A stretch of DNA of 64,000 nucleotides from Solwaraspora sp. WMMD406 (GTDB taxonomy: Bacteria > Actinomycetota > Actinomycetes > Mycobacteriales > Micromonosporaceae), in NCBI RefSeq assembly GCF_029626025.1, contig NZ_JARUBF010000001.1, forward strand, positions 5,736,001 through 5,800,000. The letters run 5' to 3'. The notes under the pieces are model-generated. The model saw only the letters and a program-made list of their open reading frames with translations, ran no database searches and was not told where the DNA came from. A program made the translations under genes and the position numbers. Each line of letters starts with the position of its first letter. The first letter of the stretch is position 1. Positions 25,382 through 49,024 of this stretch are shown here, one piece after another.

Positions 25382-25518
25382 CGGGGATGCCGCCTTTCCT
25401 CCAGCGGACACGCCAGCGGCGGGAGCCGCCCCATTGGCGGCGGGCACCTATCGTATTCACCGCAGCCACTGCCGCCGATGCGGACAGTCGGGGATGCGAC
25501 CGACGGAAGGGCGGGCCG

Positions 25519-34841: not shown

Positions 34842-34871
34842 TTGACCCCAAACAGTGACCATGCCTACAGT
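34842..34871 (+). promoter_or_regulatory. Housekeeping-type promoter of the SDR-SGNH-peptide operon
   Basis: TTGACC (34842-34847), 18-base spacer, TACAGT (34866-34871). The predicted start of transcription is near 34878, leaving a leader of about 38 bases with CGGGGG before the ATG at 34916. Confidence 0.6.
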
Positions 34872-34915: not shown

Positions 34916-35725
34916 ATGCCTGGCCTCGCGGTGGTAACTGGCGCAAGTAGCGGAATCGGCGCCGCGACGGCGGTCCGGCTCGCCGACGACGGTTACCACG
35001 TGGTCCTGGTGGCTCGCCGGAAAGCCCGGCTGGAGTCGCTCGCCGACAAGATCCAGGGACGGGTGGCCCAGGTCGACGTCACCGATCGGGCCGCCGTCCG
35101 TACGATGACCGACTCGATCCCCTCCTGTGACGTGCTGGTCAACAACGCCGGAGGCGCCTTCGGCGCGGACGAGGTCGCCACCGGCGACCCCGCCGACTGG
35201 GAACGGATGTTCCAGATCAACGTGCTGGGCACCCTGCACCTCACCCAGGCGTTGCTGCCCAAACTCAGCGCGGGAAGTGGCGGCACCATCGTCAACATCA
35301 CCTCCACCGCCGCCTCCGTCAACTACGAAACCGGCGGCGGCTATTCGGCGGCCAAGCACGCCCAGCACGCGTTGACCGAAACCCTCCGGTTGGAATTGTG
35401 CGGACAGCCCGTACGGGTCGTCGAGATCGCGCCCGGCATGGTCCGGACCGACGAATTCGCGCTCAACCGGTTCCGGGGTGACGCCGCGCGGGCCGCCGCC
35501 GTCTACGCAGGAGTCGAGCAGCCGCTGTCCGCCGAGGACGTCGCCGCGTGTGTGTCCTTCGTCGTGGGACTGCCGGGGCACGTCAACGTCGACCGTTTGG
35601 TGGTTCGGCCACTCGCCCAGGCGGCACAGCACAAGGTCCACCGGTCCGCCATCGGCGCGGCCCCGGTCCAGCAGACCGCCACGGCACGGTCCGGTCCGCC
35701 GGGGGTCCCGGGCTGCGCGATCTGA
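34916..35725 (+). CDS. Short-chain dehydrogenase/reductase (SDR)
   Basis: A 269-residue classical SDR: cofactor motif VTGASSGIGAAT (residues 7-18), VNNAGG near 75, catalytic Ser in ITSTAAS, Tyr143 and Lys147 in YSAAKHA, and APGMVRT. An Arg after the first strand (ARRKARL) suggests NADPH. The last 35 residues (from about 235) are a Pro/Gly/Thr-rich tail absent in typical 240-residue members. It is the first gene after a clear promoter and is followed at 169 bases by the SGNH hydrolase gene. Substrate unknown. Confidence 0.93.
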   Translation: MPGLAVVTGASSGIGAATAVRLADDGYHVVLVARRKARLESLADKIQGRVAQVDVTDRAAVRTMTDSIPSCDVLVNNAGGAFGADEVATGDPADWERMFQINVLGTLHLTQALLPKLSAGSGGTIVNITSTAASVNYETGGGYSAAKHAQHALTETLRLELCGQPVRVVEIAPGMVRTDEFALNRFRGDAARAAAVYAGVEQPLSAEDVAACVSFVVGLPGHVNVDRLVVRPLAQAAQHKVHRSAIGAAPVQQTATARSGPPGVPGCAI

Positions 35726-35894
35726 CCATCCGTCCCGTCCATCATCGTCGAGCCTGGCCGGGCTCGTCCGCCTGACCCACCGGCCGCGACAACCCACGCC
35801 CGTCCGACGCCAGTCGCACGTGGCCGCAGAAAGTGCCGTCGAAGCGCCTCATCCGCCCCTGTCCTGACGAGATCCGCAAGGAGCTGCTACCGCC

Positions 35895-36935
35895 ATGTCC
35901 GCACGTGCGGCTTTGACCCCCCAGATGCTCCAGTACGACGACTTCGACGACCGGTCACAGACTCGCTGGTTGCCGTACCTCATGTACTTTCACCGCGCGG
36001 ACTACCGGTCGGACGTGATCACCACCGACCGGCTCGGTTTCCGCCCGTCACAAGGCCCACAAGGACCCGACGGCGCCGGTCATGCCGGGCAGGCGTCGGC
36101 CGGGGCCCGGCTGCCGGACGGATCGGTCCGGTTGCTGGTCGGCAGCTCCAGCGCCTTCGGCATCGGGGTCACCGCCGACGACCAGACGATGGCCACGCTG
36201 CTGTGGTCGCGGTACGCGCCGTCGAAGCCGTGGCTCAACTTCGCCGGCCGTAGCTTCAACTCCACTCAGGAGGCAATGCTGTTCCTACTGTTCCGTCACC
36301 TGCTGCCACCGATCGACGAGATCGTGTTCTTCTCCGGCCTCAACGATCTGGCGTTGAGCCGTCTCCCCGCCGAGCAGCGCGGCGAGCACGGTGCCTTCTT
36401 CAACTGTGGCGAGTACTTCAACGCCATGGAGACGCTCCGTGCCGCGCACCGCAAGCCACAGGGCCGCCTCGGCCGCCGGCTACGGGCCGGCGGCGGCACC
36501 GCTTCCCCGACGGAACCCGAGGTCCGGCCACTGCCCGAACGGGTGTCGGGCGCGGTCGAACTGACCGCCCGCAACCTCGACAGTTGGCGGCTGCTGGCAC
36601 CGGACGCCCGGATCTCGTACGTCCTGCAGCCGCTGGCGACCTGGATCCGCGACGACCCGGCGCCCGAGGAACGGCAGCTCTTCGGCGAGCTGGACGAGAT
36701 TTCGAACTTCTGGCAGTTGTACGGCGACATCGCGACCCGGGAGACCGGCCGGACCTACGCCGCGCAGCTACGGGAGGCCTGCGAGAAGCGCGACATCAGA
36801 TTCGTGGACATCTCACCGGCGTTGGCCGAGACGGTTTCGCCGACCGACTGGATGTTCGTCGATCGGGCGCACTTCACCGACCTGGGCTCGGACATCGTCA
36901 CCCGGGTCCTCGCCGAACAACTGGAACTGTCCTGA
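35895..36935 (+). CDS. SGNH/GDSL-hydrolase-like protein
   Basis: A 346-residue protein. SGNH blocks in order: LLVGSSSAFGIGV (block I Ser), NFAGRSFNSTQE (block II Gly), FFSGLNDLALS (block III Asn) and FVDRAHFTDLGSDI (block V Asp and His). There is no signal peptide, so it acts inside the cell. In sugar and antibiotic loci, cytoplasmic SGNH-like proteins often accompany carbamoyltransferase and SxtJ-type genes, as here. AGGAG lies about 12 bases before the ATG. The substrate may be an ester on the pathway intermediate or the small peptide encoded next; this is inference. Confidence 0.85.
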   Translation: MSARAALTPQMLQYDDFDDRSQTRWLPYLMYFHRADYRSDVITTDRLGFRPSQGPQGPDGAGHAGQASAGARLPDGSVRLLVGSSSAFGIGVTADDQTMATLLWSRYAPSKPWLNFAGRSFNSTQEAMLFLLFRHLLPPIDEIVFFSGLNDLALSRLPAEQRGEHGAFFNCGEYFNAMETLRAAHRKPQGRLGRRLRAGGGTASPTEPEVRPLPERVSGAVELTARNLDSWRLLAPDARISYVLQPLATWIRDDPAPEERQLFGELDEISNFWQLYGDIATRETGRTYAAQLREACEKRDIRFVDISPALAETVSPTDWMFVDRAHFTDLGSDIVTRVLAEQLELS

Positions 36936-36999
36936 CCCCGGCCGCCCCTGACGCCGGCCGTCCTGACGACAACTCGTCTACCGACCGAAAGGTGATCCG

Positions 37000-37086
37000 A
37001 TGTCGCTCATCAAGCGTCTCTTCGCCCGCATCTTCCGCCGCAAGCCGAAGCCTAACTCCGACGCCTCCATCTACCCCATGTTCTAG
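37000..37086 (+). CDS. 28-residue peptide, possible precursor or scaffold
   Basis: A very short gene too small for standard gene finders. The ATG at 37000 follows AAGGTGA at a good distance, and the stop lies 17 bases before the next gene, which has its own ribosome site. The peptide has a cationic amphipathic N-terminal helix (SLIKRLFARIFRR), a KPKPN break, and a C-terminal SDASIYPMF. The ending recalls the FIYT(L/I)F terminus of DUF5989 proteins that neighbour carbamoyltransferase and SxtJ genes. Either it is a miniature DUF5989-like helper, or a RiPP-like precursor or carrier peptide worked on by the following oxygenase-like enzyme. No Cys is present. Confidence 0.7.
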   Translation: MSLIKRLFARIFRRKPKPNSDASIYPMF

Positions 37087-37103
37087 CCGGGAGGAGAAGA
37101 ACC

Positions 37104-39284
37104 ATGGACGGCCTCGACGCCAGGGGTGTCTACGCCTACGTCTTCGACCCCGAGCTGCTGCTACCGCCCCGCTGGGCCGACGAGATCGATCGGGAGGTCA
37201 CCCGGTTGGCCGGACCCGCCCCCGGACCAACCGCCGGACCCGCCCCCGGACCAACCGCCGGACCCGCCGCCGCGCCGGCACCGTCGTGGGACGAGCTGGT
37301 GGCCGAGGCTCGGCAGGAGCTGGACCGGGTCCGGCAGCGCCAGGACGCCCTGTGGCGGCAGCTCGACGAACGGACCGAAGCGGTGCTGGTCCGGCGGGCG
37401 GTCGTCAGCTACGCGCCGATCGCCCTGATCGGCGGGGCGTGGTTGCAGTGGCTCAGCGATCCCAGCAACGCCGACGAGGCGCTGACCATGCAGGTGCTCG
37501 CGCTGTACGCGAACGACGTCGGCGTCGGCCGGCCACGTGCCGCCCGGGGCAGCGCCTACCTCACCTTGCTGCGGCACCTGTCGTGCTCGGAGAACGCGGT
37601 GCCGACCACGCGGCTGACCATCGATCCGAGGGTCCCGGACAGTGCCTTCTATCTGCCCGCGCTGTTGCTGGCGATGAGCCGGATGCCGGACCGGTTCCGG
37701 CCCGAGATCCTCGGCGCCGACCTGTATCTGCGAGCTGTCGGCCTGCCGCCGGCGCTGGCCGAGGTGCGCCGGCTGATGCCGAACGCCACCGACTGGGACC
37801 GGATCGACACCAGTGCGAGCCTGGTCGGGATCCGGGAAGCCGTCGACCTGCTTGGCGTCGACGGCACCGCCGGACCCCGCGTCGCCAGCGGATTCCGTTG
37901 GGCGGCGGCGGCGGACCGGCGGTTCGCCGAGGAGATCCTGGCCGACCTGACGGCGGCGCGGGATCCGGGGTACGAGATGGCGGAGCTGCTGCGCAACCGG
38001 GCCCGCGAAGGGCTGGTCTACCACCAGCAGTTCCAGTTGGCGGGCCGGTCGCTGTCGGACTGGCTCGCCGACGCCCGTACCGACCCGGGTCCGTTGATGG
38101 CCGCGCTGGCCGGCAGCAAGCTCGTCAAGCCGGGCCGCTCGGCGGCCAGTCCCCTGGTGTCCGGGCTGGTCGGCGAACGCGGGCCGATGTTCCGGGTCTT
38201 CTCCCCGGAGGACCTGGCAGTACTCCGCCGCTGGATCGACGCGCTACCGGCGGAGTCCCTGCCGGTCACCACCGCGACGGTGCCCGGACTCAATATCCGC
38301 GTCTCGGCACCGGCCGGCGACGACAGCCCGGTGACCGACGACGACAGCCCGACGACGGGCCGAACGGGGACCGGCCGAACGGGGCCGCGCCGGGGGGCGA
38401 TGGGTCTGCGCGACGCCTATCACCAGCTGGTCCGCCGGGTGGACACCCCGCAGGTACGGCGATTCGCGCAGGACTACGTCGCCGGCTGGCTCGCCCGCTC
38501 CGCGCACGACCTGGCCGGTGCGGTCAACCAGCTGCCCGCCCGATGGGGCCCGGAAGGGCTGCGGCCCTGGCTGCAGGAGCAGCACGACCGCCACGCGGCC
38601 GAGTTCGACAGCGGCGGCACCGTACCGTCGCGGGAGGACCTGGTCGACGCCACGGTGCAGCTCGCCCCGCTGACCTTGATCGACGGCGCGTGGCTGCAGG
38701 GCTTCACCGACTACGAGCTCGCTTCCTCCGAGTACGGGCACTTCCTGTTCGAGACGTACTGGGACGAGCTGGGCAACGGCGAGCTCAAGCTCAACCATCC
38801 GTTGATCTATCGCGAGGTCCTCGACCAGATGGGAGTACGGCTGCCCCCGACAGGTTCGCCGGAGTTCGCCCACTCGCCGGTGTTGCGCGACGAGTCCTTC
38901 GAGTTGCCGGTCTACTGGCTGAGCGTCGGCCGGTTGGCGCGCACCCACGTACCGGAGATCCTGGGTTTGAACGTGGCGATGGAGCTGTCCGGGGTCGGCG
39001 GCAGCTACCGGCGGGCGCGGATCGCCCTGAAGGAGTACGGCTTCTCGACCCGGTTCGTCGACATCCACAACACGATCGACAACGTGGCGACAGGGCATTC
39101 CGCCTGGGCTGCCGACGCGGTGGACACGTACCTCGGGGCGATCGCGACCACCCACGGCGCCGAGGGTCGCGATGCCGCCTGGGCGCGGGTCCGGGTCGGA
39201 TACCGCTCGCTCAACCCGCCCTCGGACTTCTGGGCCCGTCGGGCGCAGCGGCGAGCCCAGCGGGCCAACGCCGGCCGGCGGTAG
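37104..39284 (+). CDS. Duplicated haem-oxygenase-like di-iron protein (iron-containing redox enzyme family)
   Basis: A 726-residue protein. Residues 1-70 contain two GPAPGPTA repeats. Two helical halves follow (about 85-260 and 500-710) that share AVVSYAPIALIGGAWLQW versus ATVQLAPLTLIDGAWLQG and RFRPEILGADL versus THVPEILGLNV. The C-terminal half keeps a plausible di-iron ligand set: Glu550 (FETYWDELGNG), His565 (NHPLIY), Glu627 (AMELSG), His655, Asp659 and His665 (IHNTIDNVATGH). At the matching N-terminal positions these are replaced (e.g. ALYANDVGVG, YLRAVG). Such HDO enzymes perform N-oxygenation, decarboxylation or C-C cleavage. GGGAGGAG precedes the ATG. It follows the small peptide gene immediately. 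Confidence 0.88.
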   Translation: MDGLDARGVYAYVFDPELLLPPRWADEIDREVTRLAGPAPGPTAGPAPGPTAGPAAAPAPSWDELVAEARQELDRVRQRQDALWRQLDERTEAVLVRRAVVSYAPIALIGGAWLQWLSDPSNADEALTMQVLALYANDVGVGRPRAARGSAYLTLLRHLSCSENAVPTTRLTIDPRVPDSAFYLPALLLAMSRMPDRFRPEILGADLYLRAVGLPPALAEVRRLMPNATDWDRIDTSASLVGIREAVDLLGVDGTAGPRVASGFRWAAAADRRFAEEILADLTAARDPGYEMAELLRNRAREGLVYHQQFQLAGRSLSDWLADARTDPGPLMAALAGSKLVKPGRSAASPLVSGLVGERGPMFRVFSPEDLAVLRRWIDALPAESLPVTTATVPGLNIRVSAPAGDDSPVTDDDSPTTGRTGTGRTGPRRGAMGLRDAYHQLVRRVDTPQVRRFAQDYVAGWLARSAHDLAGAVNQLPARWGPEGLRPWLQEQHDRHAAEFDSGGTVPSREDLVDATVQLAPLTLIDGAWLQGFTDYELASSEYGHFLFETYWDELGNGELKLNHPLIYREVLDQMGVRLPPTGSPEFAHSPVLRDESFELPVYWLSVGRLARTHVPEILGLNVAMELSGVGGSYRRARIALKEYGFSTRFVDIHNTIDNVATGHSAWAADAVDTYLGAIATTHGAEGRDAAWARVRVGYRSLNPPSDFWARRAQRRAQRANAGRR

Positions 39285-39352
39285 CCGACACCACCCGTAG
39301 ACAGATAGCCGATGCCAGCCGTAGCAGCAAAGCCTGACCTGGGGAGCATGCC

Positions 39353-41188
39353 ATGCCTGACCTGGTTCTGGGAGTGTCCGCCTACTACCACGACAGCGCC
39401 GCCGCGCTGATCAGCGACGGCGTGCCGGTCGCGGCCGCCCAGGAGGAGCGGTTCAGCCGCCGCCGGCACGATTCGCGGTTCCCGGCCCGGGCCGTGCGCT
39501 ACTGCCTGGAGCACGCCGGGGTCGACCTGGGTGCCGTGTCCACGGTCGCCTACTACGAGGATCCGCGACTGAAGTTCCGCCGGGTGCTGGCCAGCTACCT
39601 GGGTGGGGTACCGGCCGGCTTCGCGTCGTTTCGGCAGACACTGCCCGAGTGGCGGTCGTGGAAGCGGGAAGCGGATCGGACCGTCGCCGACGAACTGCGC
39701 GAACTGGGACTCGGTCCGGTGCCGCCGGTGGTGTGCCGTCGCCACCACGAGTCGCACGCGGCGTCGGCGTTCCTGCCCAGCCCGTACGATTCGGCGGCGG
39801 TGCTCTGCATCGACGGGGTGGGCGAATGGGCCACCACCACGCTGTGGCACGGGCGTGGGGCGACGGTGGAACCACTGGTCGAGATCCAGTTCCCGCACTC
39901 GCTCGGCATGCTGTATTCGGCGTTCACCTACTACTGCGGGTTCAAGGTGGACTCCGGCGAGTACAAGGTGATGGGGCTGGCCCCGTACGGCCGGCCGACC
40001 TACGTCCAGCGGATCCGTGACGAGCTCATCGACGTCAAGCCGGACGGATCGTTCCGGTTGAACATGCGCTACTTCGAGTACCTGCGGGGGCAGGTGATGA
40101 CCGGGCGGGGGTTCGAGCGGCTGTTCGGCGGTCCGCGCCGGCAGCCCGAGGCGGCGCTGACCCAGCGGGAGTTCGACCTCGCCGCGTCGGTGCAGCAGGT
40201 GACCGAGGAGGTGGTGCTGCGGTTGGCGCGGACGGCCCGGACGATGACCGGGGAGTCGCGGCTGTGCCTGGCTGGTGGGGTGGCACTCAACTGCGTGGCC
40301 AACGGCAAGATCGTGCAGGAGGGGATCTTCGACGAGGTCTGGGTGCAGCCGGCGGCCGGTGACGCCGGTGGTTCGCTCGGTGCCGCGATGCTCGTCGCCG
40401 CCGAGCGGGGTGCGGCGCGGCACCGTCCGGGTCCCGGGCGGGACGCGATGTCGGGGTCGCTGCTCGGCCCGGCGTACGGCGACGAGGAGATCGCGGCCTA
40501 CCTGGACGAGCGCTCGGCGCCGTATGTCCGGCTCACCGGGGACGAGTTGGCCCGGAGGGTCGCGGCGCTGCTGGACGCCGGCAAGATCGTCGGCTGGTTC
40601 CAGGGGCGGATGGAGTTCGGTCCGCGGGCGCTCGGGGCGCGGTCCATCCTCGGCGATCCCCGCAATCCGACCATGCAGTCGGCGATGAACGTCAAAATCA
40701 AGTTCAGGGAGTCGTTCCGGCCGTTCGCGCCGTCGGTGCTCGCTCCGGACGCCAAGGAGTACTTCGAACTCACCCAGGACAGCCCGTACATGTTGATCGT
40801 CGCGCCGGTCGCGGCCGCCCAGCGGGTCCAGTCCGACGCCCCGGCGGATCTCTCCGGCCTCGACCTGCTGCGGGTCCGACGGTCGACGATCCCGGCGGTC
40901 ACCCACGTCGATTCCTCGGCCCGGGTGCAGACGGTGACGCCCGAGGACAACCCGACCTATCACCGGCTGCTGGCCGCTTTCAAGGAATTGACCGGCTGCC
41001 CGGTCGTCGTCAACACCTCGTTCAATGTACGGGGCGAGCCGATCGTCAACACTCCGGCCGACGCCTACACCTGCTTCATGCGGACGAACATCGATTATCT
41101 GGCCATCGGAGGATACCTCCTCGACAAGGCGGATCAGCCGCCGTGGCAAGAGAAGGACGACTGGCGCGACGCCATCCCACTCGATTGA
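39353..41188 (+). CDS. O-carbamoyltransferase (NodU/CmcH/TobZ family)
   Basis: A 611-residue enzyme transferring a carbamoyl group from carbamoyl phosphate through a carbamoyl-adenylate to a hydroxyl. The N-terminal Kae1-like domain has LGVSAYYHDSAAALISDG, RRHHESHAASAF (His131, His132, His135), LCIDGVGEWATTTL and YKVMGLAPYG. The C-terminal YrdC-like domain has CLAGGVALNCVANGKI, QPAAGDAGGSLGAA, FQGRMEFGPRALGARSIL and KIKFRESFRPFAPS. Length matches the family. GGGGAG lies before the ATG. It shows that the product of this locus probably bears a carbamate; the acceptor is not evident. Confidence 0.95.
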   Translation: MPDLVLGVSAYYHDSAAALISDGVPVAAAQEERFSRRRHDSRFPARAVRYCLEHAGVDLGAVSTVAYYEDPRLKFRRVLASYLGGVPAGFASFRQTLPEWRSWKREADRTVADELRELGLGPVPPVVCRRHHESHAASAFLPSPYDSAAVLCIDGVGEWATTTLWHGRGATVEPLVEIQFPHSLGMLYSAFTYYCGFKVDSGEYKVMGLAPYGRPTYVQRIRDELIDVKPDGSFRLNMRYFEYLRGQVMTGRGFERLFGGPRRQPEAALTQREFDLAASVQQVTEEVVLRLARTARTMTGESRLCLAGGVALNCVANGKIVQEGIFDEVWVQPAAGDAGGSLGAAMLVAAERGAARHRPGPGRDAMSGSLLGPAYGDEEIAAYLDERSAPYVRLTGDELARRVAALLDAGKIVGWFQGRMEFGPRALGARSILGDPRNPTMQSAMNVKIKFRESFRPFAPSVLAPDAKEYFELTQDSPYMLIVAPVAAAQRVQSDAPADLSGLDLLRVRRSTIPAVTHVDSSARVQTVTPEDNPTYHRLLAAFKELTGCPVVVNTSFNVRGEPIVNTPADAYTCFMRTNIDYLAIGGYLLDKADQPPWQEKDDWRDAIPLD

Positions 41189-41202
41189 CAGGAGATGTCA
41201 TC

Positions 41203-41346
41203 GTGACCGCACTGCTGTTCCTGTTCTATTTTCTCGTCATGACGCCGGTCGGCTGGTTGGCCCGGATCGGCCCGGATCCGATGCGGCGGCGCTGGCGGCG
41301 ACAGGCCGACAGCTACTGGACACCGTCGCGGGTCGACCATGAGTGA
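41203..41346 (+). CDS. Miniature SxtJ-like membrane protein
   Basis: A 47-residue protein starting at GTG 41203 with AGGAG 10 bases upstream. One membrane helix (TALLFLFYFLVMTPVGWLARI) is followed by GPDPMRRRWRRQADSYWTP. This matches the C-terminal part of SxtJ-type proteins, which are about 130 residues, carry TPxGxxxR after the last helix and end in SYW, and lie next to carbamoyltransferase genes. Here only the last helix remains. It overlaps the regulator gene by 8 bases, so the arrangement is maintained as an operon. Role unknown. Confidence 0.72.
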   Translation: MTALLFLFYFLVMTPVGWLARIGPDPMRRRWRRQADSYWTPSRVDHE

Positions 41347-42463
41347 CCAGTCGACGGGTCTGGCCAGCCAGGCCAGGGTCCACACCGGACCGGGTGGTTC
41401 AGCCGCCGGGCCGGACCGCCCGGGAACGACGATGGCCTGGCCCGCCCAGCTGACCGAGACGAGCCTGGCGGTCTACCGGCACGCGGCGGCGACCGGGCAG
41501 GTCAGCGTGGAGTCCGTCGTGTCCACGTTCGCCTGGTCGCGCACGGACGCCGAACGGGCCTGCGCCACGCTCCTGAGCCTGCGGCTGCTGGAGCCCGGCC
41601 GGCAGCCGGGCACCTTCGTTCCGGTGCACCCGGATCGGGCCCGCGCACTGGCCAGCGAACCGCTGGTCGACGAGATCCTGGTCCGCCGCTCCGCCATCGA
41701 GTTCACCAACCGGCAGCTGGAACGAGCCGCTCAGGCCCTGTCGGACACCGTCCGGATCGGGCCGGACGGCGACGGGATCCGGGTGGTGTCCGATCCCGTA
41801 CAGGTCCGCCGGGAGATCAACGAGATGCTGCTGGCCTGCACGGAAGAGGTGCTCGTGACGCAGCCTGGCGGGGCCCGGGGTCCACTGCCGGATCCCATCG
41901 ACCCGGGCCTGCTCCGTCCGGGGGTCCGGTGCCGGATCCTGCGCCAACACACGGTCCGCGCCAACCTCGGCATGCGGACGTACGCCAAGGTGATCGCCGA
42001 CCACGGCGGTCAGGTCCGGACCACCGGCGACGCGTTGGAGCACCTGCTGCTGGTGGACGGATCGGCGGTGCTGCCGCTGGCACCACCGCAGGAACCAGAG
42101 TCCGGCTCGGTGGTGCTGACCCACGCCCCGGTGGTCGAATTCCTCCGCCGTGGCTTCGACCGCGCCTGGTCGTATGCCACGCCGTACGCCGGCGACTGTG
42201 ACGACGACTACAGGCGCATTTCCGCAGAGATCAGGATGTCGGTGCTCCGGCTGATGGCCGCCGGCCTGAAAGACGAGGCGATCGCCCATCGACTCGGATT
42301 GGCGACCCGTACCTGCCGCCGGCACGTCGCCGCGATCATGGAGGAATTGAACGTCACCAGCCGGTTCCAGGCCGGCGTGCGTATTGCCGAACTCGGCCTC
42401 TTGCCGTTGAATGAGGACGTGTCCGTCGCCGGCCGGGGAAGCGACTCCTATCCCTTCTGGTGA
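41339..42463 (+). CDS. LuxR-type regulator with TrmB-like N-terminus
   Basis: A 374-residue regulator. An N-terminal winged-helix-like segment (about 35-85, TETSLAVYRHAAATGQVSVESV) and a central phospholipase-D-like sensor region (about 125-290, with LVTQPGG, RCRILRQHTVR, LLLVDGSAVLPL and FDRAWSYATPY) give the common TrmB/LuxR fusion layout. The C-terminal LuxR HTH is AAGLKDEAIAHRLGLATRTCRRHVAAIMEELNVTSRFQAG. No phosphorylatable receiver domain is present. Being co-transcribed with the pathway genes, it likely controls them, possibly via the inverted repeat at 34797. Confidence 0.88.
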   Translation: MSDQSTGLASQARVHTGPGGSAAGPDRPGTTMAWPAQLTETSLAVYRHAAATGQVSVESVVSTFAWSRTDAERACATLLSLRLLEPGRQPGTFVPVHPDRARALASEPLVDEILVRRSAIEFTNRQLERAAQALSDTVRIGPDGDGIRVVSDPVQVRREINEMLLACTEEVLVTQPGGARGPLPDPIDPGLLRPGVRCRILRQHTVRANLGMRTYAKVIADHGGQVRTTGDALEHLLLVDGSAVLPLAPPQEPESGSVVLTHAPVVEFLRRGFDRAWSYATPYAGDCDDDYRRISAEIRMSVLRLMAAGLKDEAIAHRLGLATRTCRRHVAAIMEELNVTSRFQAGVRIAELGLLPLNEDVSVAGRGSDSYPFW

Positions 42464-42546: not shown

Positions 42547-42574
42547 AGGTCCGACGATGGAGGTCCGACGATGG
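42547..42574 (+). repeat. 14-bp tandem duplication of the ribosome site and start codon
   Basis: AGGTCCGACGATGG occurs twice in tandem (42547-42560 and 42561-42574). Each copy carries an AGG(T) and an ATG. The first ATG (42557) opens a seven-codon frame reading MEVRRWW that ends at 42580, overlapping the LysE start at 42571. Confidence 0.8.
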
Positions 42575-43200
42575 TGGTGAGCACCGCCGCGGTGATCGGC
42601 ATCGGGACGATCGCGCTCGGCATGGTCCTGACACCCGGCCCGAACATGATCTATCTGGCCTCGCGGTCGATCGTGCAGGGACGTCAGGCGGGGTTGATCT
42701 CGCTGGGTGGCGTGATCGCCGGATTCGTCGTCTACCTGGCGCTCGTCGCCGTCGGCGTGGCGGCCGTACTCGCGATCGTCCCGTGGCTCTACACCGCTAT
42801 CAAGCTGGCGGGGGCGGCCTACCTGCTGTGGCTGGCCTGGAGCGCGTTACGGCCGGGCGGGCACTCGGCGTTCGAGCCGAGGGTGCTGCCACCGGACTCG
42901 CGGCGCAAACTGTTCACCATGGGGTTGGTGACCAATCTGCTCAACCCGAAGATCGCCATCCTGTACATGTCGCTGCTGCCGCAGTTCGTCGACCCGGCGC
43001 GCGGTCACATCATCGAGCAGACCATGATCCTCGGTCTGACGCAGATCGTCGTCGCCGGTACGGTCAACGCGTTGATCGTGCTGTTCGCCAGTTCCATCTC
43101 GCTGTTCCTCAAGCATCGGCCGACCTGGTTGCGCATCCAGCGCTACCTGATGGGTACGGTGTTGGCCGCCTTGGCGGTACGCGTCGCGGTGGCCGAGTGA
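42571..43200 (+). CDS. LysE/RhtB-family amino acid exporter
   Basis: A 209-residue membrane protein with six helices; the family start IGIGTIALGMVLTPGPNMIYLASRSI is clear (TPGPN motif), followed by GLISLGGVIAGF and FTMGLVTNLLNPKIAILYMSLLPQFV. Members export amino acids or small peptides. It sits between the carbamoyltransferase operon and the trpBA/ATP-grasp genes and may export a product of either. The last 58 bases overlap the convergent GntR gene. Confidence 0.92.
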   Translation: MVVSTAAVIGIGTIALGMVLTPGPNMIYLASRSIVQGRQAGLISLGGVIAGFVVYLALVAVGVAAVLAIVPWLYTAIKLAGAAYLLWLAWSALRPGGHSAFEPRVLPPDSRRKLFTMGLVTNLLNPKIAILYMSLLPQFVDPARGHIIEQTMILGLTQIVVAGTVNALIVLFASSISLFLKHRPTWLRIQRYLMGTVLAALAVRVAVAE

Positions 43201-44006
43201 GGGGTGCCCGTCGCGGTGCCCGAACGAGGATCGTGCGGGCTGCCGGACTGGCCCCAGCGCAACATGACCCCCTGGGCCGACCGCTCGGTGTAGATCTCGA
43301 CCAGGTCCCCGACGATGACCGCCCGGTCCACCACCACGTACGCCCCGGTGAAGCTTTCGGTCACCCGCAGGCTCTCCCAGGTGGGGGTGGCGGCGGGCCG
43401 GCCGAGTAGGGCGGCGACCTTGGCGTCCAGCGCGCCGGGCCGGATCCGCTCGGTCGCCCGTTCGACGGCCACCCCGACCCCGGCGAGGGCGTGGTAGAGC
43501 GACTCGTGGCTGAAGTCGCGCTCCCGCAGCGACTCGGCGTAGGGCATCGGGACCCACGACTCCTGTTGGATGGCGGCTTGACCGTCGATACGGCGGAGCC
43601 GTTCCAGCCGCAGCGCCCGGCCGGCACCGAGCCAGCCAGCCACCCAGCTGGGCGGTCGCCGGAGCCCGACATCACAGACCACCGTGGTGACGTCGTGTCC
43701 CTGCTCCCGCAGGTCCTCGGTGAAGCTGCGCAACGTGTCCAACCGGTAGTTGGCCTGTGGCGAGGCGACCAGCGTCATCCGGCCGGCGTGCGACACCACC
43801 AGACCCCGGTCGGTCAACACCTCCAGCGCCTGACGCAGCGTCATCAGCGTGACGCCGTACGCCGCGCTCAGCGCCCGCTGCGCGGGCAGCGCGGATCCGG
43901 CCGGGTACTCCCCCGACCGGATCCGAGCCTCCAGGTCCGCGGCGATGGCGAGATACTTGGGCGTACGGCGGCCCGACGGCTCAGTGCTGTGGCTCCGAGC
44001 GGGCAT
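43143..44006 (-). CDS. GntR-family regulator (HutC/UTRA type)
   Basis: A 287-residue regulator: winged HTH (residues 15-80, KYLAIAADLEARIRSGEYPAGSALPAQRAL and VTLMTLRQALEVLTDRGLV) and a UTRA ligand domain (about 95-250, with LRSFTEDLREQGH, RLERLRRIDGQAAIQQESWVP and ESFTGAYVVVDRAVIVGDLVEIYTER). A Thr/Ala-rich tail overlaps the LysE gene. CAGGAGT precedes the ATG. Its start overlaps the trpA end by 26 bases, so it is co-transcribed with trpBA. GntR proteins of this class bind GT-N-TA-N-AC palindromes, matching the twin site in front of trpB. Confidence 0.92.
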   Translation of the reverse strand: MPARSHSTEPSGRRTPKYLAIAADLEARIRSGEYPAGSALPAQRALSAAYGVTLMTLRQALEVLTDRGLVVSHAGRMTLVASPQANYRLDTLRSFTEDLREQGHDVTTVVCDVGLRRPPSWVAGWLGAGRALRLERLRRIDGQAAIQQESWVPMPYAESLRERDFSHESLYHALAGVGVAVERATERIRPGALDAKVAALLGRPAATPTWESLRVTESFTGAYVVVDRAVIVGDLVEIYTERSAQGVMLRWGQSGSPHDPRSGTATGTPHSATATRTAKAANTVPIR

Positions 44007-44823
44007 GGGGAAACTCCTGATCCACGGCGCGGCGGACGGCTGCCAGCCAGGCTCCCGCAGTCGCCGGATCGGCCCCGTCGAGCACCTGTCGCATCAGGAT
44101 AGAACCGATGACGACGCCGTCGGCCGCTCGGGCGGCGGCGATCGCGTGTCGGGCGGTGGAGATACCCAGCCCGAGCAGCACCGGCAGGTCGGTGCAGGCG
44201 GTCAGGGTGGCGGCCAGGTCGAGTGCCTCGGGGGCCAACTCGTCGCGGACTCCGGTGGTGCCCATCAGACTCACCGCGTACACGAATCCCCGGCTGCGGC
44301 CGGCGATGTCGCGCAGCCGGTCGGGCGGCGTGGACGGGGCGGCCAGCAGGACGAGGTCGACGCCTTCGGCGGCGGCGGCCGGTTCGAGGTCGTCGAGTTC
44401 CTCCAGCGGGACGTCGGGCACGATCAGGCCGCGTACGCCGGCCTGGGCCAGGGCCGCGCAGAACCGTCTCGGGCCGTGCTGTTGTACCAGGTTGTAGTAG
44501 GTCATCACGATCAGTGGGACGTTGGTGGAGACCGTCGCGAGGTCGGCCAGGATCCGGCGGACACCGGCGCCGCCGGCCAGGGCGACGTCGTTGGCCCGCT
44601 GGATGATCGGCCCGTCGAGCATCGGGTCGGAGAACGGCAGGCCGATCTCGATCGCGTCGGCGCCGGCCCGCGCGTACGCGTCGAGGTAGGCGGTCCAGTC
44701 GGTGCTGATGCCGCCGGTGACGAACGGAACGATCAGCTTGCGGTCGCCCCGACGCAACGCCTGGTGTGGGCTCGTCCCGGGCAACGTCTGCTGGGTCCCC
44801 GGCGAGATCTGGTGCGGGCTCAA
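43981..44823 (-). CDS. trpA: Tryptophan synthase alpha subunit
   Basis: A 280-residue TIM-barrel enzyme that cleaves indole-3-glycerol phosphate to indole and glyceraldehyde-3-phosphate. Catalytic Glu and Asp appear in ADAIEIGLPFSDPMLDGPIIQRA, and the phosphate site in VSLMGTTGVRD and GLGISTARH. The apparent start is TTG at 44823 overlapping the trpB stop (TTGA); no ATG or GTG exists before LIVPFVTGG. The N-terminal 23 residues (SPHQISPGTQQTLPG) are atypical. No other trp genes are next to it, so it may serve a pathway consuming tryptophan or an analogue. Confidence 0.93.
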   Translation of the reverse strand: MSPHQISPGTQQTLPGTSPHQALRRGDRKLIVPFVTGGISTDWTAYLDAYARAGADAIEIGLPFSDPMLDGPIIQRANDVALAGGAGVRRILADLATVSTNVPLIVMTYYNLVQQHGPRRFCAALAQAGVRGLIVPDVPLEELDDLEPAAAAEGVDLVLLAAPSTPPDRLRDIAGRSRGFVYAVSLMGTTGVRDELAPEALDLAATLTACTDLPVLLGLGISTARHAIAAARAADGVVIGSILMRQVLDGADPATAGAWLAAVRRAVDQEFPHARSEPQH

Positions 44824-46067
44824 CCGGCCTCCATCATCGCGGGGATGTCCTTGTCGCCGCGACCCGAGAGGGTCATCAGCACGGTGGCTCCGCTGGGGAG
44901 TTCGCCGGACTCGGCTGCCTGGATGATCCAGGCCAGGGCGTGGGCGGATTCCAGGGCGGCGATGATGCCTTCGGTCCGGGCCAGGCGGACCACGGCCGCG
45001 CGGACCGCCTGGTCGTCGACGGCGACGTAGCGGGCCCGGCCGAGGTCGTGCAGGTGGGCGTGTTCCGGCCCGACGCCCGGGTAGTCGAGTCCGGCCGCGA
45101 TCGAGTGGGCCTCGGCGATCTGGCCGTCGTCGTCCTGCAGCACCATCGACCGGAAGCCGTGCACCACGCCGGCCCGGCCGGAGCTGATCGCCGCCCCGCC
45201 GGCGGCTTCGACCCCGACGAGCCGCGCGCTGGTGTCCACGAAACCGGCGAAGGTCCCGGCGGCGTTGGAGCCGCCGCCGACGCAGGCCACCACGTAGTCC
45301 GGCACCGAGGTGGTCAGCTCGGCGGCCACCTGGCGGCGGGCCTCGTCGCCGATGACCCGCTGGAACTCGCGGACCATCCACGGGTAGGGGTGGGGGCCGA
45401 CGACCGAGCCGACGCAGTAGTAGGTGTCGTGCACGGTGGACACCCAGTGCCGCATCGCTTCGGTGCAGGCATCCTTGAGCGTACGGCTGCCGACGTCGAC
45501 CGGCACCACCTCGGCGCCGAGCAGTCGCATCCGGTAGACGTTGGGGGCCTGGCGTTCGATGTCCCGGCTGCCCATGAAGACGGTGGCGCGCAACCCCAGC
45601 AGTGCGGCGGCGGTGGCGGTGGCCACGCCGTGCTGACCGGCGCCGGTCTCGGCGATGATGCGTGGTTTGCCCATCCGGTTGGCGAGCAACGCCTGGCCGA
45701 GGACGTTGTTGATCTTGTGGGAGCCGGTGTTGGCCAGGTCCTCCCGTTTGAACAGCAGGGTGATCCCGAGTTCGGCGGAGAGCCGCCAGGCCGGTGTCAA
45801 CGCGGTCGGCCGGCCGGCGTGCACCCGCAGCAGCCGGTCGAGTTGGCGGTGGAACTCGGCGTCGGCCCATGCCGCCCGGAACTCGCGTTCGAGTTCCTGG
45901 CAGGCCGGGACGAGGGACTCGGGCACGTACCGACCACCGTAGGCACCGAATCGACCGGTGACGCCGGGGTCGGCCGCACCCGGTCCCGTGCGGGACACAG
46001 CTTCCATGCCGGGCGGGCCGGTGTGGAGGGCGCGATCGCGGTGGGGGGCGGGGACGAGTTGGCTCAT
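44820..46067 (-). CDS. trpB: Tryptophan synthase beta subunit
   Basis: A 415-residue PLP enzyme. GRFGAYGGRYVPESL marks the N-terminal domain, KREDLANTGSHKINN has the PLP lysine, ETGAGQHGVATATAAA, GSRTLKDA, VACVGGGSNAAG (phosphate loop) and TLSGRGDKD complete the family set. The 36-residue extension before GRFGAYGG is variable and contains several Pro and Gly. It condenses indole with serine, with TrpA from the next gene. No ribosome site is visible: TACGCT (46080 to 46075) ends 7 bases before the ATG, so the mRNA is probably leaderless. Confidence 0.95.
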   Translation of the reverse strand: MSQLVPAPHRDRALHTGPPGMEAVSRTGPGAADPGVTGRFGAYGGRYVPESLVPACQELEREFRAAWADAEFHRQLDRLLRVHAGRPTALTPAWRLSAELGITLLFKREDLANTGSHKINNVLGQALLANRMGKPRIIAETGAGQHGVATATAAALLGLRATVFMGSRDIERQAPNVYRMRLLGAEVVPVDVGSRTLKDACTEAMRHWVSTVHDTYYCVGSVVGPHPYPWMVREFQRVIGDEARRQVAAELTTSVPDYVVACVGGGSNAAGTFAGFVDTSARLVGVEAAGGAAISSGRAGVVHGFRSMVLQDDDGQIAEAHSIAAGLDYPGVGPEHAHLHDLGRARYVAVDDQAVRAAVVRLARTEGIIAALESAHALAWIIQAAESGELPSGATVLMTLSGRGDKDIPAMMEAG

Positions 46068-46074
46068 GACGGTG

Positions 46075-46107
46075 AGCGTATCGCGTTCTAGAACAGAGTT
46101 CTAGAAC
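46075..46107 (-). promoter_or_regulatory. trpBA-gntR promoter with twin GntR-type operator
   Basis: GTTCTAGAAC, a perfect 10-bp palindrome, occurs at 46085-46094 and 46098-46107, three bases apart. It fits the GT-N-TA-N-AC consensus of HutC-type GntR regulators and resembles the DasR core GGTCTAGACC. A -10 element TACGCT (minus strand, 46080 to 46075) follows; the operators would cover the -35 and spacer, so repression by the co-encoded GntR protein is expected. Confidence 0.8.
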
Positions 46108-46117
46108 AAAACACGAG

Positions 46118-47362
46118 TCACGGGTACGGCGACCCAAGCCGGACCCGCCCACCGAACGAGCCCGGCCGGCACTCCAACCGGAACCGTGCCGCGACGTCGA
46201 GCAGCGCCTTCTCCACGGTCGCGGTGTCCGCGCCGCCGAACCGGAACCGCGCCCCGACGTGCTCGTACCCGCCGATGCGGGGAATGGCCTGACCGGGACG
46301 AGGGACCCGGGACGCGTACAGGCACTCGATGTCGGCCAGCGCCGACGGATCGGTGGCCACGACCACCTCGCACGGCGCCGGGACCGGCGTCGGCACCAGC
46401 AGCCAGCCGCCGGTCCGCCAGGTGGCCGGCGGCGACAGCACCGGAGTCCGGCCCAGCTGCACGTCCACGGCGGCGGTCATCAGGTCGACACCGTGCACCT
46501 CCCGCCACAGGAACGGAATCTCCGCGCCGCCGACCCGGTAGCCCACCTCCAGAAACGTCGGTGCCACGTCGGCGTCGGCGAACGCCTCCATGTGGAACAC
46601 CCACGGCTGATCGCTGAGGGCACCCGCCACCGCCGCCGTGAACCGGCCCAGCTCCGCCAGCAGCAGCGGGTCGTCCACCTCGACCGAGCCGAGCACCGCC
46701 CCGCTGGTGAAGGCGGCCGGCGCGTTGACGTACCGCGACGCCCGCCACGGACCCAGCTCGGCACCGGTCCACAGCCCGTCGATGTGGTAGATCGGCGCGG
46801 GACAGAAGCGCTGGACCAGCCGGGGCTCCGGCGGCAGGTCGGCCAACCGGGACAGGTCGGCCGCCGAGTTCAGCACCTGGATGCCCCGGCTCGCCGTACC
46901 GCGTCGCGGCTTGACCACCACCGGCCAGCCGTGGGACTCGGCGAACACCCGTACCGCGTCGACGTCCGGCGCGTCGGCGAACGCCAACGTCCGGACGCCG
47001 GCGTCGGCGACCAGCCGGGTCATCACCAGCTTGTCGCGGAAGCGGGCGACCGCCGACGGGTGCTGCCCGGGCAGGCCCAGCTCGGCACGTAACCGGGCGG
47101 CGGTGATCAGGTCGCCTTCGTTGAGGGCGACCAACCGCTCGGGGTGCCCCCACCGGTCGATCAACCCGCGCACCGCGCCCCGTACCTGCTCCAGATCCTC
47201 GATGTCGCGCACCACGACCGCCGCCGTCGCCCCGGCCGGGACCGAGTCGCGACCGAGTGCGGTGGTCACGTAACTCACCCGGTGGGCGTCGTGGTCGAGG
47301 TAGTCCGCGTAACGGGCGTAGCGGTCCCGCCACCGGTTCAGCACGATGATCTGTCCGGTCAT
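46118..47362 (-). CDS. ATP-grasp ligase (second of two)
   Basis: A 414-residue ATP-grasp protein: N-terminal Rossmann-like domain (IIVLNRWRDRYARYADYLD), ARFRDKLVMTRLVADAGVRT before the lid, GWPVVVKPRRGTASRGIQVL (ATP-binding Lys), RLVQRFCPAPIYHIDGLW and FLEVGYRVGG (metal-binding acidic and Asn/Arg positions). The layout matches amino acid or peptide ligases of the carnosine synthase and L-amino acid ligase class, forming an amide through an acyl phosphate. ATG at 47362 overlaps the preceding helical protein gene by 4 bases. Confidence 0.88.
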   Translation of the reverse strand: MTGQIIVLNRWRDRYARYADYLDHDAHRVSYVTTALGRDSVPAGATAAVVVRDIEDLEQVRGAVRGLIDRWGHPERLVALNEGDLITAARLRAELGLPGQHPSAVARFRDKLVMTRLVADAGVRTLAFADAPDVDAVRVFAESHGWPVVVKPRRGTASRGIQVLNSAADLSRLADLPPEPRLVQRFCPAPIYHIDGLWTGAELGPWRASRYVNAPAAFTSGAVLGSVEVDDPLLLAELGRFTAAVAGALSDQPWVFHMEAFADADVAPTFLEVGYRVGGAEIPFLWREVHGVDLMTAAVDVQLGRTPVLSPPATWRTGGWLLVPTPVPAPCEVVVATDPSALADIECLYASRVPRPGQAIPRIGGYEHVGARFRFGGADTATVEKALLDVAARFRLECRPGSFGGRVRLGSPYP

Positions 47363-47718
47363 GACGCCCTGCTCCGCGCCTCGTCGTGCACCCGGTGGAC
47401 GGCGTAGCTCGCGGTGGTGACCGCCGCACGGGCATGCGACAACGCCTGGCGGGCCGCGTCCAGGTCGCCGACCGGCAGCATCACCACGAGTTCCGCGGCG
47501 GAACTGATCAGGTGCATCGCCGTCTGTGACAGCGGATCGTCGTCGCCGAACTGGGTGACGACGCACCGGTGGGCCAGCCGCAACAGGGCGTGGATGTCGT
47601 ACCCGGTCTCCTCGGCCACGGACTCGACCACGGACTCGGCCACGGACTCGACCACGCCCCCGGACTCGCCCACGGTGACGGCCTCGACCATGTCCCGCTG
47701 GTCCAGGTCAGACGACAT
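47359..47718 (-). CDS. Small helical protein between two ATP-grasp genes
   Basis: A 119-residue acidic, helical protein. The N-terminal third has repeated VVESVAES units; residues 40-110 (GYDIHALLRLAHRCVVTQFG and ELVVMLPVGDLDAARQALSHA) look like a four-helix bundle. Its start overlaps the first ATP-grasp gene by 11 bases and its end overlaps the second by 4, so it is part of the pathway, perhaps as a complex subunit. No family recognised. Confidence 0.8.
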   Translation of the reverse strand: MSSDLDQRDMVEAVTVGESGGVVESVAESVVESVAEETGYDIHALLRLAHRCVVTQFGDDDPLSQTAMHLISSAAELVVMLPVGDLDAARQALSHARAAVTTASYAVHRVHDEARSRAS

Positions 47719-48955
47719 CGAAGCGGATCCGGTCGTTGACCGCGTCGCAGCGGGCGACGGCGTCGTCGGCGTCCCGGCCCGTCGCGATGACGTAACCGCT
47801 GGTGCAGTCGGCGACGGTCAGCAGCGGCGGAACGGTGTCGCCCGCGCTCTTCTGGATCACGACCCCGACCTCGGCGTCGCGCAGCTCGTCCAGGTAGGGC
47901 AGGAACACCTTGGGCACCACCCCCTTCGGCAGGTACTTCACCGCCGCGTCCAGGTCGTCGGGGACGTGCACGCCGCGTACCGTCCCGGGATCGGGGGTGA
48001 AGAAGCGCACCGCCGCCGCGGCGATCGGTTCCGGCGACGCCGCCGGCAAGGGCTCCAGACCCAGCGGTACGGTCAGCATCATCCGCTGGATGTCGACCCC
48101 GAAGGCCCGGCGGACCAGCTCGGGTGCGCCGCTGCCGGCCAGCCGGGCGTGGGACTCGAGAACCCGGGGCCCGTCGGCGGTCAACACGAACTCGCTGTGC
48201 GACGGCCCTTCGGTCAGCCCGACCGCGTCGAGCAGCTTGGGGGTCAGCTCGCGCAAGGCGGCGAGCTGGGCGGTGGCGAACCGGCTCGGGGTGCTCACCT
48301 CCCATTCCACGAAGCGGTCGTTCATCCGGTACTCGGAGTAGCCGATCGGCACGTGGCGGCCGCCGAACGAGAACGAGTCCACGCTGACCACCGGGCCTTC
48401 GAGGAACTCCTCGGCCAGCGCCGACGTGATCCCGGCGTCGGTGAGCACCTTCCAGGCCAGGGCCGCGTCGTCGGCGCTGCGGACCAGGTTGATGTACATG
48501 CTGGCCACGCCGTCGATCGGCTTGACCACGATCGCGCCACCGATCTGCTCGAAGAACTCGGCGGCCTCGGCAGCGCTGTGCACCACCCGGTTGCGGACCG
48601 GGCTGAGATCATGCTCGGCCAGCAACGCGCGGGTGAGTGCCTTGTTGAGCATCGCCCGCGCGGTCGCCTCGCTCACGCCGGGCAGGCCGAGCGCGTCGAC
48701 CACCGCGCCGGTGGAGACGCCGGCGGGTTCGGTCGTGGTCATCACCCGGTCGAAGGGGCGCTGGCGGTGCAGCGGCAGCAGGACGTCCAGGATCGCGTCG
48801 CTGTCCTCGATCGGGGCGTGGATGATCCGCTCGCAGTGCGCCGCGATGGACTCGTCGTACGCTCCCTCCTGATGTACCAGAACGACGTCGATCCCCAACT
48901 CCTTGGCGCCGACGATGGGCGCGGGCCGGCCGCCGATCATGGCAATCCGGAACAT
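47708..48955 (-). CDS. ATP-grasp ligase (first of two)
   Basis: A 415-residue ATP-grasp enzyme: RIAMIGGRPAPIVGAKELGIDVVLVHQ (N-domain), RAMLNKALTRALLAEHDLSPVRN, GGAIVVKPIDGVASMYINLV with the ATP lysine, ALAEEFLEGPVVSVDSFSFGG, and metal ligands in SHSEFVLTADGPRVLESHARLAGSG. It resembles carbamoyl phosphate synthetase-like amino acid ligases used in dipeptide and modified amino acid pathways. AAGGAGG lies 7 bases before the ATG. The oxygenase gene ends 69 bases upstream, likely the same operon. Confidence 0.9.
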   Translation of the reverse strand: MFRIAMIGGRPAPIVGAKELGIDVVLVHQEGAYDESIAAHCERIIHAPIEDSDAILDVLLPLHRQRPFDRVMTTTEPAGVSTGAVVDALGLPGVSEATARAMLNKALTRALLAEHDLSPVRNRVVHSAAEAAEFFEQIGGAIVVKPIDGVASMYINLVRSADDAALAWKVLTDAGITSALAEEFLEGPVVSVDSFSFGGRHVPIGYSEYRMNDRFVEWEVSTPSRFATAQLAALRELTPKLLDAVGLTEGPSHSEFVLTADGPRVLESHARLAGSGAPELVRRAFGVDIQRMMLTVPLGLEPLPAASPEPIAAAAVRFFTPDPGTVRGVHVPDDLDAAVKYLPKGVVPKVFLPYLDELRDAEVGVVIQKSAGDTVPPLLTVADCTSGYVIATGRDADDAVARCDAVNDRIRFDVV

Positions 48956-49024
48956 GGACTTCCTCCTTGTAGCACAGTGGACTGTTGGGTCGGGCGCATC
49001 CGCGCAGTGTGTGAATCCGAGGGC

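Follow-up and report, generated by a model that had tools for sequence, protein, structure and literature searches.

Gvg-like clusters, which are related to gvg, the 4-formylaminooxyvinylglycine (FVG) operon, have been described (PMC8064604, in the sections available), and for gvgA, gvgB, gvgC, gvgF and gvgG of Pseudomonas fluorescens WH6 the accessible part of PMC8067088 lists knock-outs with loss of activity. In saxitoxin clusters, the excerpted text of PMC2679770 assigns SxtI to carbamoylation, gives SxtJ and SxtK as unknown, and treats SxtL as a GDSL-lipase homologue proposed to be a decarbamoylase. In DltX and PatA, the Tyr of a C-terminal FXYXXF motif is the covalent acyl-carrying site of an 'acyl shuttle' (PMC12148441), a term found in that paper only within the open-licence literature.

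The window, meaning the whole 64,000-nucleotide stretch analysed here from Solwaraspora sp. WMMD406, was annotated from a program-made ORF list and a Pfam domain scan. The following features were obtained:

34842..34871, plus strand: weak sigma-70-like promoter match, TTGACC-18-TACAGT (1 found, 0.4 expected)
34916..35725, plus strand: SDR oxidoreductase (Pfam adh_short, E 1.5e-48)
35895..36935, plus strand: SGNH hydrolase of the GvgA/CgnD family (Pfam Lipase_GDSL_2, E 1.4e-8)
36987..36994, plus strand: ribosome-binding-site-like GAAAGGTG, 5' of the peptide ATG, read from the sequence
37000..37086, plus strand: 28-aa GvgB-type peptide, MSLIKRLFARIFRRKPKPNSDASIYPMF, from the ORF list and without Pfam match
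37066..37083, plus strand: C-terminal hexapeptide SIYPMF of that peptide; the codon of Tyr25, the proposed carbamoyl carrier, is at 37072-37074
37104..39284, plus strand: double heme-oxygenase-like (HDO) protein, GvgC-type, 726 aa (Pfam Haem_oxygenas_2, E 6.5e-18)
39353..41188, plus strand: O-carbamoyltransferase (CT), GvgF-type, 611 aa (Pfam Carbam_trans_N/C, 1.2e-88 and 1.5e-74)
41203..41346, plus strand: 47-aa single-TM 'mini-SxtJ', like the C-terminal part of SxtJ, start codon uncertain, without Pfam match
41339..42463, plus strand: LuxR-type regulator, 374 aa (Pfam GerE, E 1.8e-9)
42571..43200, plus strand: LysE-family exporter (Pfam, E 8.8e-31)
43143..44006, minus strand: GntR/UTRA regulator, candidate cluster member (domain scan)
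44820..46067, minus strand: TrpB-type PLP enzyme, candidate cluster member (domain scan)
46118..47566, minus strand: conserved protein of no known family, start codon uncertain, without Pfam match
47708..48955, minus strand: ATP-grasp ligase, L-amino acid ligase type (domain scan)
49025..49966, minus strand: TauD-family dioxygenase, nearest NCBIfam models GntD and clavaminate synthase

The plus-strand order named in the original prediction (SDR, SGNH, 28-residue peptide, HDO, CT, 47-residue protein, LuxR) was confirmed at every position, and the promoter placed in front of it was found, but as a weak match. The spacing of the genes suggests one co-transcribed operon. The LysE exporter and the minus-strand genes to about 49966 had gone unmentioned. 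For the conserved protein of no known family, a 444-aa frame at 46101-47435 was set aside, as codon-position G+C favours 46118-47566; by eye its product is ATP-grasp-like.

This locus is almost certainly a gvg-like cluster or module. Counterparts of gvgA (SGNH), gvgB (the Lys-rich small ORF), gvgC (HDO) and gvgF (CT) occur together in it, and gvgG, a small membrane ORF, probably corresponds to the 47-aa protein, given its size, membrane segment and place. The earlier statement that the combination matched no characterised pathway was thus too strong, at least against the available portions of PMC8064604 and PMC8067088. For comparison, 86 related loci from four phyla, window counted, were collected via the HDO protein; SGNH, HDO, CT and peptide were all kept in 80 of them (the window and 79 of the 85 others), HDO by construction. 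On gene content, the original prediction thus passed its own check against related loci. One locus in the set (L085) comes from FW300-N2E3, a P. fluorescens strain that the available part of PMC8064604 names. Other genes recur less widely, with relatives, window counted, of the SDR in 20/86 loci, the LuxR-type regulator in 10/86, the LysE exporter in 32/86, the 46118..47566 protein in 23/86, the ATP-grasp ligase in 41/86 and the TauD-family dioxygenase in 25/86. The class III aminotransferase and formyltransferase of the Pseudomonas loci gave no match in the 64 kb window by tblastn (best E 0.74 and 0.14; one query protein each, from L104 and L108), so that a complete FVG-making gvg cluster is absent within it. 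As the window carries TauD and ATP-grasp genes instead, FVG itself is not the predicted product.

A single Lys/Arg-rich frame ending [ST]IYP(M/L)x was present in 82/86 loci, whereas five permuted motifs were each found in 0/86 of the same loci; the peptide ORF is therefore real, and this control rules out its being a chance ORF. An ATG, GTG or TTG start giving 18-60 aa was available in 81 of the 82 motif-bearing loci (the exception being L106), the last motif residue was R or N in 3/82, and third codon positions of the peptide gene in the window are 93% G+C, as in the neighbouring genes. The view that the peptide was missing from Agrobacterium vitis (L016) and Acinetobacter baumannii (L017) proved wrong, since a small-ORF scan found SIYPLR-ending peptides downstream of SGNH. 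The N-terminal part of the window peptide is cationic and amphipathic (moment 0.81, reached by 4% of shuffles). The peptide has no hydrophobic stretch and no Pfam match, DUF5989 (PF19451) included, which excludes it from that family. Its likeness to DltX lies in the Tyr register: Tyr25 matches the acyl-carrying Tyr of FXYXXF (PMC12148441), the Y and last F of SIYPMF agreeing and the first F differing. Searches of the open-licence literature found no mention of SIYPMF/IYPMF, DUF5989 or O-carbamoylated tyrosine, and no paper joining HDO, carbamoyl and peptide.

Tyr-tailed microproteins accompany some members of the CT family and not others. A DUF5989 membrane microprotein, the family to which we take SxtK to belong, adjoins related CTs and ends in FIYTLF, FIYPLF or LIYPLF, while 19 of 20 further CT loci had no such microprotein. 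The location of the SGNH enzyme tracks the microprotein, being soluble with the soluble peptide and mostly membrane-anchored with DUF5989. In the window it lacks a hydrophobic N-terminal segment and is similar to CgnD over its full length, which places it in the CgnD family; its presumed triad S85-D323-H326 is conserved in 80-81 of 82 aligned rows, and with these catalytic residues it could serve as the SGNH partner of a Tyr acyl shuttle. No MBOAT donor enzyme was seen among the operon proteins scanned with Pfam, the candidate donor being the Carbam_trans protein. The 47-aa ORF is the portion, from an internal GTG, of a mechanically called 67-aa ORF starting at 41143. It had been called SxtJ-like, and although SxtJ (PF19588) gave no Pfam match at E<=1, the family of the 47-aa protein aligns with SxtJ-family residues 81-129 (hhalign probability 97.9, E 6.3e-13), making it, by alignment, a fragment-type relative of SxtJ. 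A mini-SxtJ-related ORF was detected by tblastn in 45/88 loci. Inspection of 25 loci found a GvgG-like ORF after the CT in L030, L032, L061, L066, L071 and L094, and L094 alone passed the filter among the 18 that were non-actinomycete or of divergent type (L095).

The HDO protein consists of two homologous halves (hhalign probability 98.6, E 7.9e-16), as the original term 'duplicated di-iron' implied, but the full metal site is probably confined to one copy. The Pfam Haem_oxygenas_2 match covers residues 519-700 only, and in the C-terminal half E555, H565, E618, E627, H655, D659 and H665, candidate ligands assumed from conservation, are each present in 33/33 aligned sequences. Their N-terminal counterparts are Asp138 for E555 (32 Asp and 1 Glu among 33), Arg148 for H565 (33/33), Glu201 for E618 (26/33) and Arg210 for E627 (32/33), the half-to-half alignment stopping short of the H655-H665 region. 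Since family match and full ligand pattern are found in the C-terminal half only, just that copy probably binds metal in the usual way, and two full di-iron sites are not supported. The nearest solved folds were SznF, HrmI and RohS (sequence identity 9-16% in those rows, one structural comparison list being filled by the N-terminal half), and N-oxygenases are among them; the HDO alignment, used as a profile against the PDB, returned nothing at a useful E.

Gene content, conservation, Tyr register, CT association and SGNH location are observed; in the mechanism that we propose, every chemical step is conjectural. We lean towards the peptide being a reusable Tyr carrier for the CT/SGNH pair, loaded by the CT and unloaded by the SGNH enzyme, the core of the locus then forming a cytosolic, peptide-tethered carbamoyl-processing module. 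The CT would form a carbamoyl-adenylate and transfer the carbamoyl to the phenol of Tyr25 in SIYPMF, with the cationic N-terminal part of the peptide as docking handle. The C-terminal HDO half may then oxidise the nitrogen of the bound carbamoyl group (Tyr-O-CO-NH2 to Tyr-O-CO-NHOH), although this N-oxidation on the carrier is put forward only tentatively. The SGNH enzyme would pass the group from Tyr to an acceptor or water; release as an N-alkoxy-carbamate and loss of CO2 could give an aminooxy (N-O) group like that of FVG. The mini-SxtJ might help to hold the assembly, and LysE might export the small product. Because the peptide would be regenerated, it would be a carrier like DltX and not a product. 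The full chain of events, in which a soluble micropeptide is recycled, a di-iron enzyme N-oxidises the carbamoyl on its Tyr, and release of the group yields hydroxylamine-type (aminooxy) chemistry, is a rather doubtful whole.

The original prediction of a product both carbamoylated and modified by oxidation, perhaps with a peptide as scaffold, was a fair guess. Its peptide form leads to the main rival, a RiPP precursor of the CgnA kind: a leader rich in Lys/Arg would precede a short core, all or part of IYPMF, to be oxidised by HDO, cut free by SGNH in the manner of CgnD and capped by CT. We consider this unlikely: a carrier is favoured over a peptide product because the C-terminus is nearly invariant across phyla and clusters of differing gene content, a constancy rarely expected of a product core, if not of the precursor of a cofactor, and because a like tail, on DUF5989, accompanies related CTs. 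FVG, moreover, requires gvgB, yet its structure as given by name bears no trace of I-Y-P-M-F, and other crocagin-like clusters have a glycosyltransferase in place of the carbamoyltransferase (crocagin paper, in the passages available).

The amphipathic N-terminal part would equally suit docking by a non-covalent subunit of the CT, with Tyr25 merely a binding residue, and regulatory roles for GvgA and GvgC, whose knock-outs lower gvg transcription, are discussed in the accessible part of PMC8067088. Either role for the peptide, subunit or regulator, is nonetheless improbable, as the same Tyr register marks the covalent site in DltX and PatA, SGNH catalytic residues are conserved alongside the peptide, and the same part of PMC8067088 also offers feedback from a cluster product for the transcription changes. 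The roles may instead be split, the peptide shuttling carbamoyl and the SGNH enzyme O-carbamoylating a small molecule, while HDO separately oxidises an amino-acid precursor; this is possible but less likely than not. The HDO enzymes nearest that of the window presumably take free amino acids, or derivatives of them, as substrates (for HrmI, according to entry titles). In addition, sxtI/J/K/L is a four-gene set without HDO in the excerpted text of PMC2679770. On the other side, gvg-like loci repeatedly combine SGNH, peptide, HDO and CT, which suggests that HDO acts within the carrier cycle, this recurrence being biased by the HDO-based collection of loci.

At the level of sequence, the conserved Tyr tail, the SGNH/HDO/CT/peptide partnership and the DUF5989 parallel are new, partnership and register being observed and the chemistry proposed. 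The Tyr-carrier model, which predicts +43 and then +59 Da on Tyr25, would supply a role for several small gvg genes required for FVG, would cover two proteins beside the CT in sxt-type sets, and could account for N-O bond formation in small amino acids by bacteria. If true, short Tyr-ended microproteins reach from cell-envelope acylation into soluble secondary metabolism. Should the N-oxidation on the carrier hold as well, the peptide would parallel the carrier proteins of tethered biosynthesis, and the small proteins in gvg and sxtIJKL-type sets would have a general explanation.

The window shares with DltX/DltD and PatA/PatB a Tyr third in the C-terminal hexapeptide and an SGNH enzyme, but it has a soluble peptide, a CT-family donor with no MBOAT seen, and an extra HDO. 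With sxtI-J-K-L it has in common a CT, an SxtJ-like protein, a Tyr-tailed microprotein and SGNH, whereas only the C-terminal SxtJ part is present, the microprotein lacks a membrane helix, the SGNH is soluble and HDO is added. The HDO fold is shared with SznF, HrmI and RohS, but the window protein is a double HDO with an N-terminal half lacking the full ligand set. The crocagin cluster (CgnA, CgnD, CgnI) likewise combines a CgnD-family SGNH, a short cationic peptide ending I-Y-x and a carbamoyltransferase, but it works with CgnB/CgnC/CgnE and turns its peptide into the product.

The plus-strand run of genes in the original prediction was found where it had been placed, from the SDR gene (start 34916) to the LuxR regulator gene (end 42463), and the observation was confirmed. 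The run is tightly packed, with intergenic gaps of 169 bases between the SDR and SGNH hydrolase genes, 64 between SGNH and the peptide, 17 between the peptide and the double heme-oxygenase-like protein (HDO), 68 between HDO and the carbamoyltransferase (CT), and 14 between CT and the 47-residue ORF, which overlaps the LuxR gene by 8 bases and whose product resembles the C-terminal part of SxtJ. A LysE exporter gene, previously overlooked, starts 107 bases past the LuxR gene. On the minus strand (43143-49966) lie genes for a GntR regulator, a TrpB-type enzyme, a conserved unknown-family protein, an ATP-grasp ligase and a TauD-family dioxygenase, in that order. Because relatives of the last three recur among 86 related loci (in 23, 41 and 25 respectively, window counted), the cluster probably extends to about 49966, with the GntR and TrpB genes as candidate members.

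Elsewhere in the window, two minus-strand genes upstream of the operon (31495-33353) match PADLOC HEC-01A (E 1.5e-144) and HEC-01B (E 5.4e-37), making the pair a candidate anti-phage system. Also on the minus strand, a 1128-aa protein (22061-25447) has TPR and CHAT domains, and an AlbA_2/RecG-C protein adjoins a ParA/AAA_31-type ATPase (26603-28827). The plus-strand gene at 54289-56016 encodes a GH3-family protein (Pfam); this family is known chiefly for conjugating plant hormones.

The window set matches the 'gvg-like' cluster core of gvgA, gvgB, gvgC and gvgF described in excerpts of PMC8064604. According to excerpts of PMC8067088, P. fluorescens WH6 loses activity when gvgR, A, B, C, F, G or H is knocked out; gvgB is described there as 'lysine rich' with unclear function, and the roles of GvgA and GvgC as unknown. 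The sampled portions of the gvg literature (PMC8064604, PMC8067088 and related listings) give no gvgB mechanism and do not mention its conserved end. The locus belongs to a recognised type that still awaits explanation.

HDO matches occurred in 11 of 298 genomes of the order, 5 of them at at least 49% identity, own genome counted. A profile scan of genome contigs with the HDO alignment gave 125 relatives, of which 80 were retained; these, the window and loci L015, L016, L017, L020 and L021 make up the 86, L019 and L022 being excluded as duplicates of L034 and L100. SGNH, HDO, CT and an IYP(M/L)x frame were all found in 80 of the 86, which were gathered via HDO, so that HDO presence is by construction, which does not hold for the joint presence of the other three. 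The predicted grouping of the peptide with SGNH and CT stood in these 80 homologous loci; that with HDO is built into the sample. An SGNH match accompanies CT in every CT-bearing locus save L047, a 7.6-kb contig beginning just ahead of SDR on which SGNH was not found, and L103, where HDO sits at a contig end and a single putative IYPMF-stop match lies on another contig of the same genome. The SGNH match is more distant or on the opposite strand in L064, L066 and L105. No CT or SGNH match was found within the 21.9 kb of L067, which keeps HDO; its SIYPMF-ending frame seems broken around 9800, and it is perhaps a decaying copy. L074, L080 and L082 hold HDO only, with CT, SGNH and IYP peptide absent from the locus; their double-HDO genes show 45-50% identity, and the same enzyme has perhaps been put to a different use.

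The final hexapeptide, scanned across the 86 loci with no start codon required, was SIYPMF in 76, TIYPMF in 3, SIYPLR in 2 and TIYPMN in 1; a second such frame was seen in none of the loci, and five permuted motifs occurred in 0 of 86. A start codon giving 18-60 residues was present for 81 of the 82 frames, the exception being L106. Lys and Arg make up a median of half (range 0.29-0.64) of the 14 residues preceding the hexapeptide, and the peptide is cationic and amphipathic in its N-terminal part. Genome-wide, the IYPMF-stop pattern had a single site in 5 of 11 genomes or records and none in 6, and the reversed pattern had no sites in the same 11. The two SIYPLR ends are those of these peptides:

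L016:15486-15575, peptide ending SIYPLR, not SIYPMF (A. vitis)
L017:15436-15516, peptide ending SIYPLR, not SIYPMF (A. baumannii)

In both loci LysE is flanked by HDO and CT, and the peptide follows SGNH; ectB, SidA-type and PLP genes lie upstream in L016. A distant double HDO (~25% identity) on a Streptomyces sp. NBC_00158 plasmid neighbours PEP mutase-like, SidA-type, tRNA-ligase-like and adenylation genes.

DUF5989, a microprotein with a single membrane helix, was used as an outside test, in a sample of 38 (8 of 9 matches of one search, omitting the partial match L117, and 30 of 61 from another listing). All 38 end in Y-x-x-F, 27 of them in FIYTLF and others including FIYPLF and LIYPLF; such ends were sought by the scan, yet each coincides with the end of the Pfam match. 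CTs related to that of the window adjoin DUF5989 in 19 of 20 loci. Among ten neighbours picked by eye in ten of these loci, nine match Lipase_GDSL_2 (E <=0.0014), with six of them exceeding Pfam's cut-off, and the tenth is a methyltransferase; a profile match adds a further SGNH in L171. In two loci of the same phylum, L153 and L154, the order is CT-SxtJ-DUF5989 with tails LIYPLF and FIYTLF, the former close to the SIYPMF of the gvg-like peptide. A hydrophobic segment within the first 70 residues of SGNH was found in 0 of 81 gvg-like loci versus 7 of 9 DUF5989 loci, and for this reason the gvg-like set appears, from sequence, to be a soluble variant of the same machinery. The membrane version presents a puzzle, its microprotein tail probably lying outside the membrane and CT inside.

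Twenty further CT loci, chosen non-randomly (mostly best-scoring, then a spread), served as control. A Tyr-tailed microprotein within 2.5 kb on the CT's strand was present in 65 of 82 gvg-like loci, where misses are expected since HDO and other genes intervene, and in 18 of 19 DUF5989 loci; it was absent from 19 of 20 controls (CT identity <=49.4%), the sole exception being L203 (TLYALF; CT 54.5% identical to the window's). Control motifs under this rule occurred in 1 of 82, 0 of 19 and 0 of 20 loci respectively. L203 was also the only control with a clear SGNH match by profile or phmmer, the match being weak in L221 (E 3.4e-4) and borderline in L204 and L205 (E 0.007-0.008). In a CT tree of 69 rows (29 chosen gvg-like, 18 DUF5989, 20 others and 2 SIYPLR; proteins under 350 aa dropped), gvg-like CTs form a single group (100/99) joined by the SIYPLR loci (99/94), and the neighbouring group holds 16 DUF5989 CTs and L203 (92/88, not starred). 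Exceptions are DUF5989 loci L156 and L158, which branch lower, and the microprotein-free L204-L206, which lie inside the wider group (100/96) holding all partnered CTs; several distant rows are long-branched and their placement is unsure. Control and tree therefore tie Tyr-tailed microproteins, HDO or not and with exceptions, to one part of the CT family.

There is good evidence that this part of the CT family has the peptide as a Tyr-tailed partner. The peptide likely holds the carbamoyl group covalently, by analogy with DltX and PatA, and action of HDO on the carrier would be the boldest step of that reading. The main rival is a RiPP precursor like crocagin's, a reading supported mainly by the SGNH enzyme, whose closest relative of solved structure is the crocagin enzyme CgnD. 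Crocagin is a RiPP made from a 21-residue precursor with a cationic leader and an Ile-Tyr-Trp end, in a cluster that includes a carbamoyltransferase; excerpts of PMC10070186 report that CgnD was slow to release the crocagin core, that its labelling with PMSF failed, and that its dimer has apparent channels ending at the active sites. That the peptide only shuttles carbamoyl while HDO acts separately on an amino-acid precursor is possible, though less likely than not.

In DltX and PatA, as described in part of PMC12148441, the acyl group is carried to an SGNH enzyme by the Tyr of a C-terminal FXYXXF hexapeptide, and the Tyr register is identical in the peptide of the window. As speculation, a carrier of this kind may have given rise to the peptide of crocagin.
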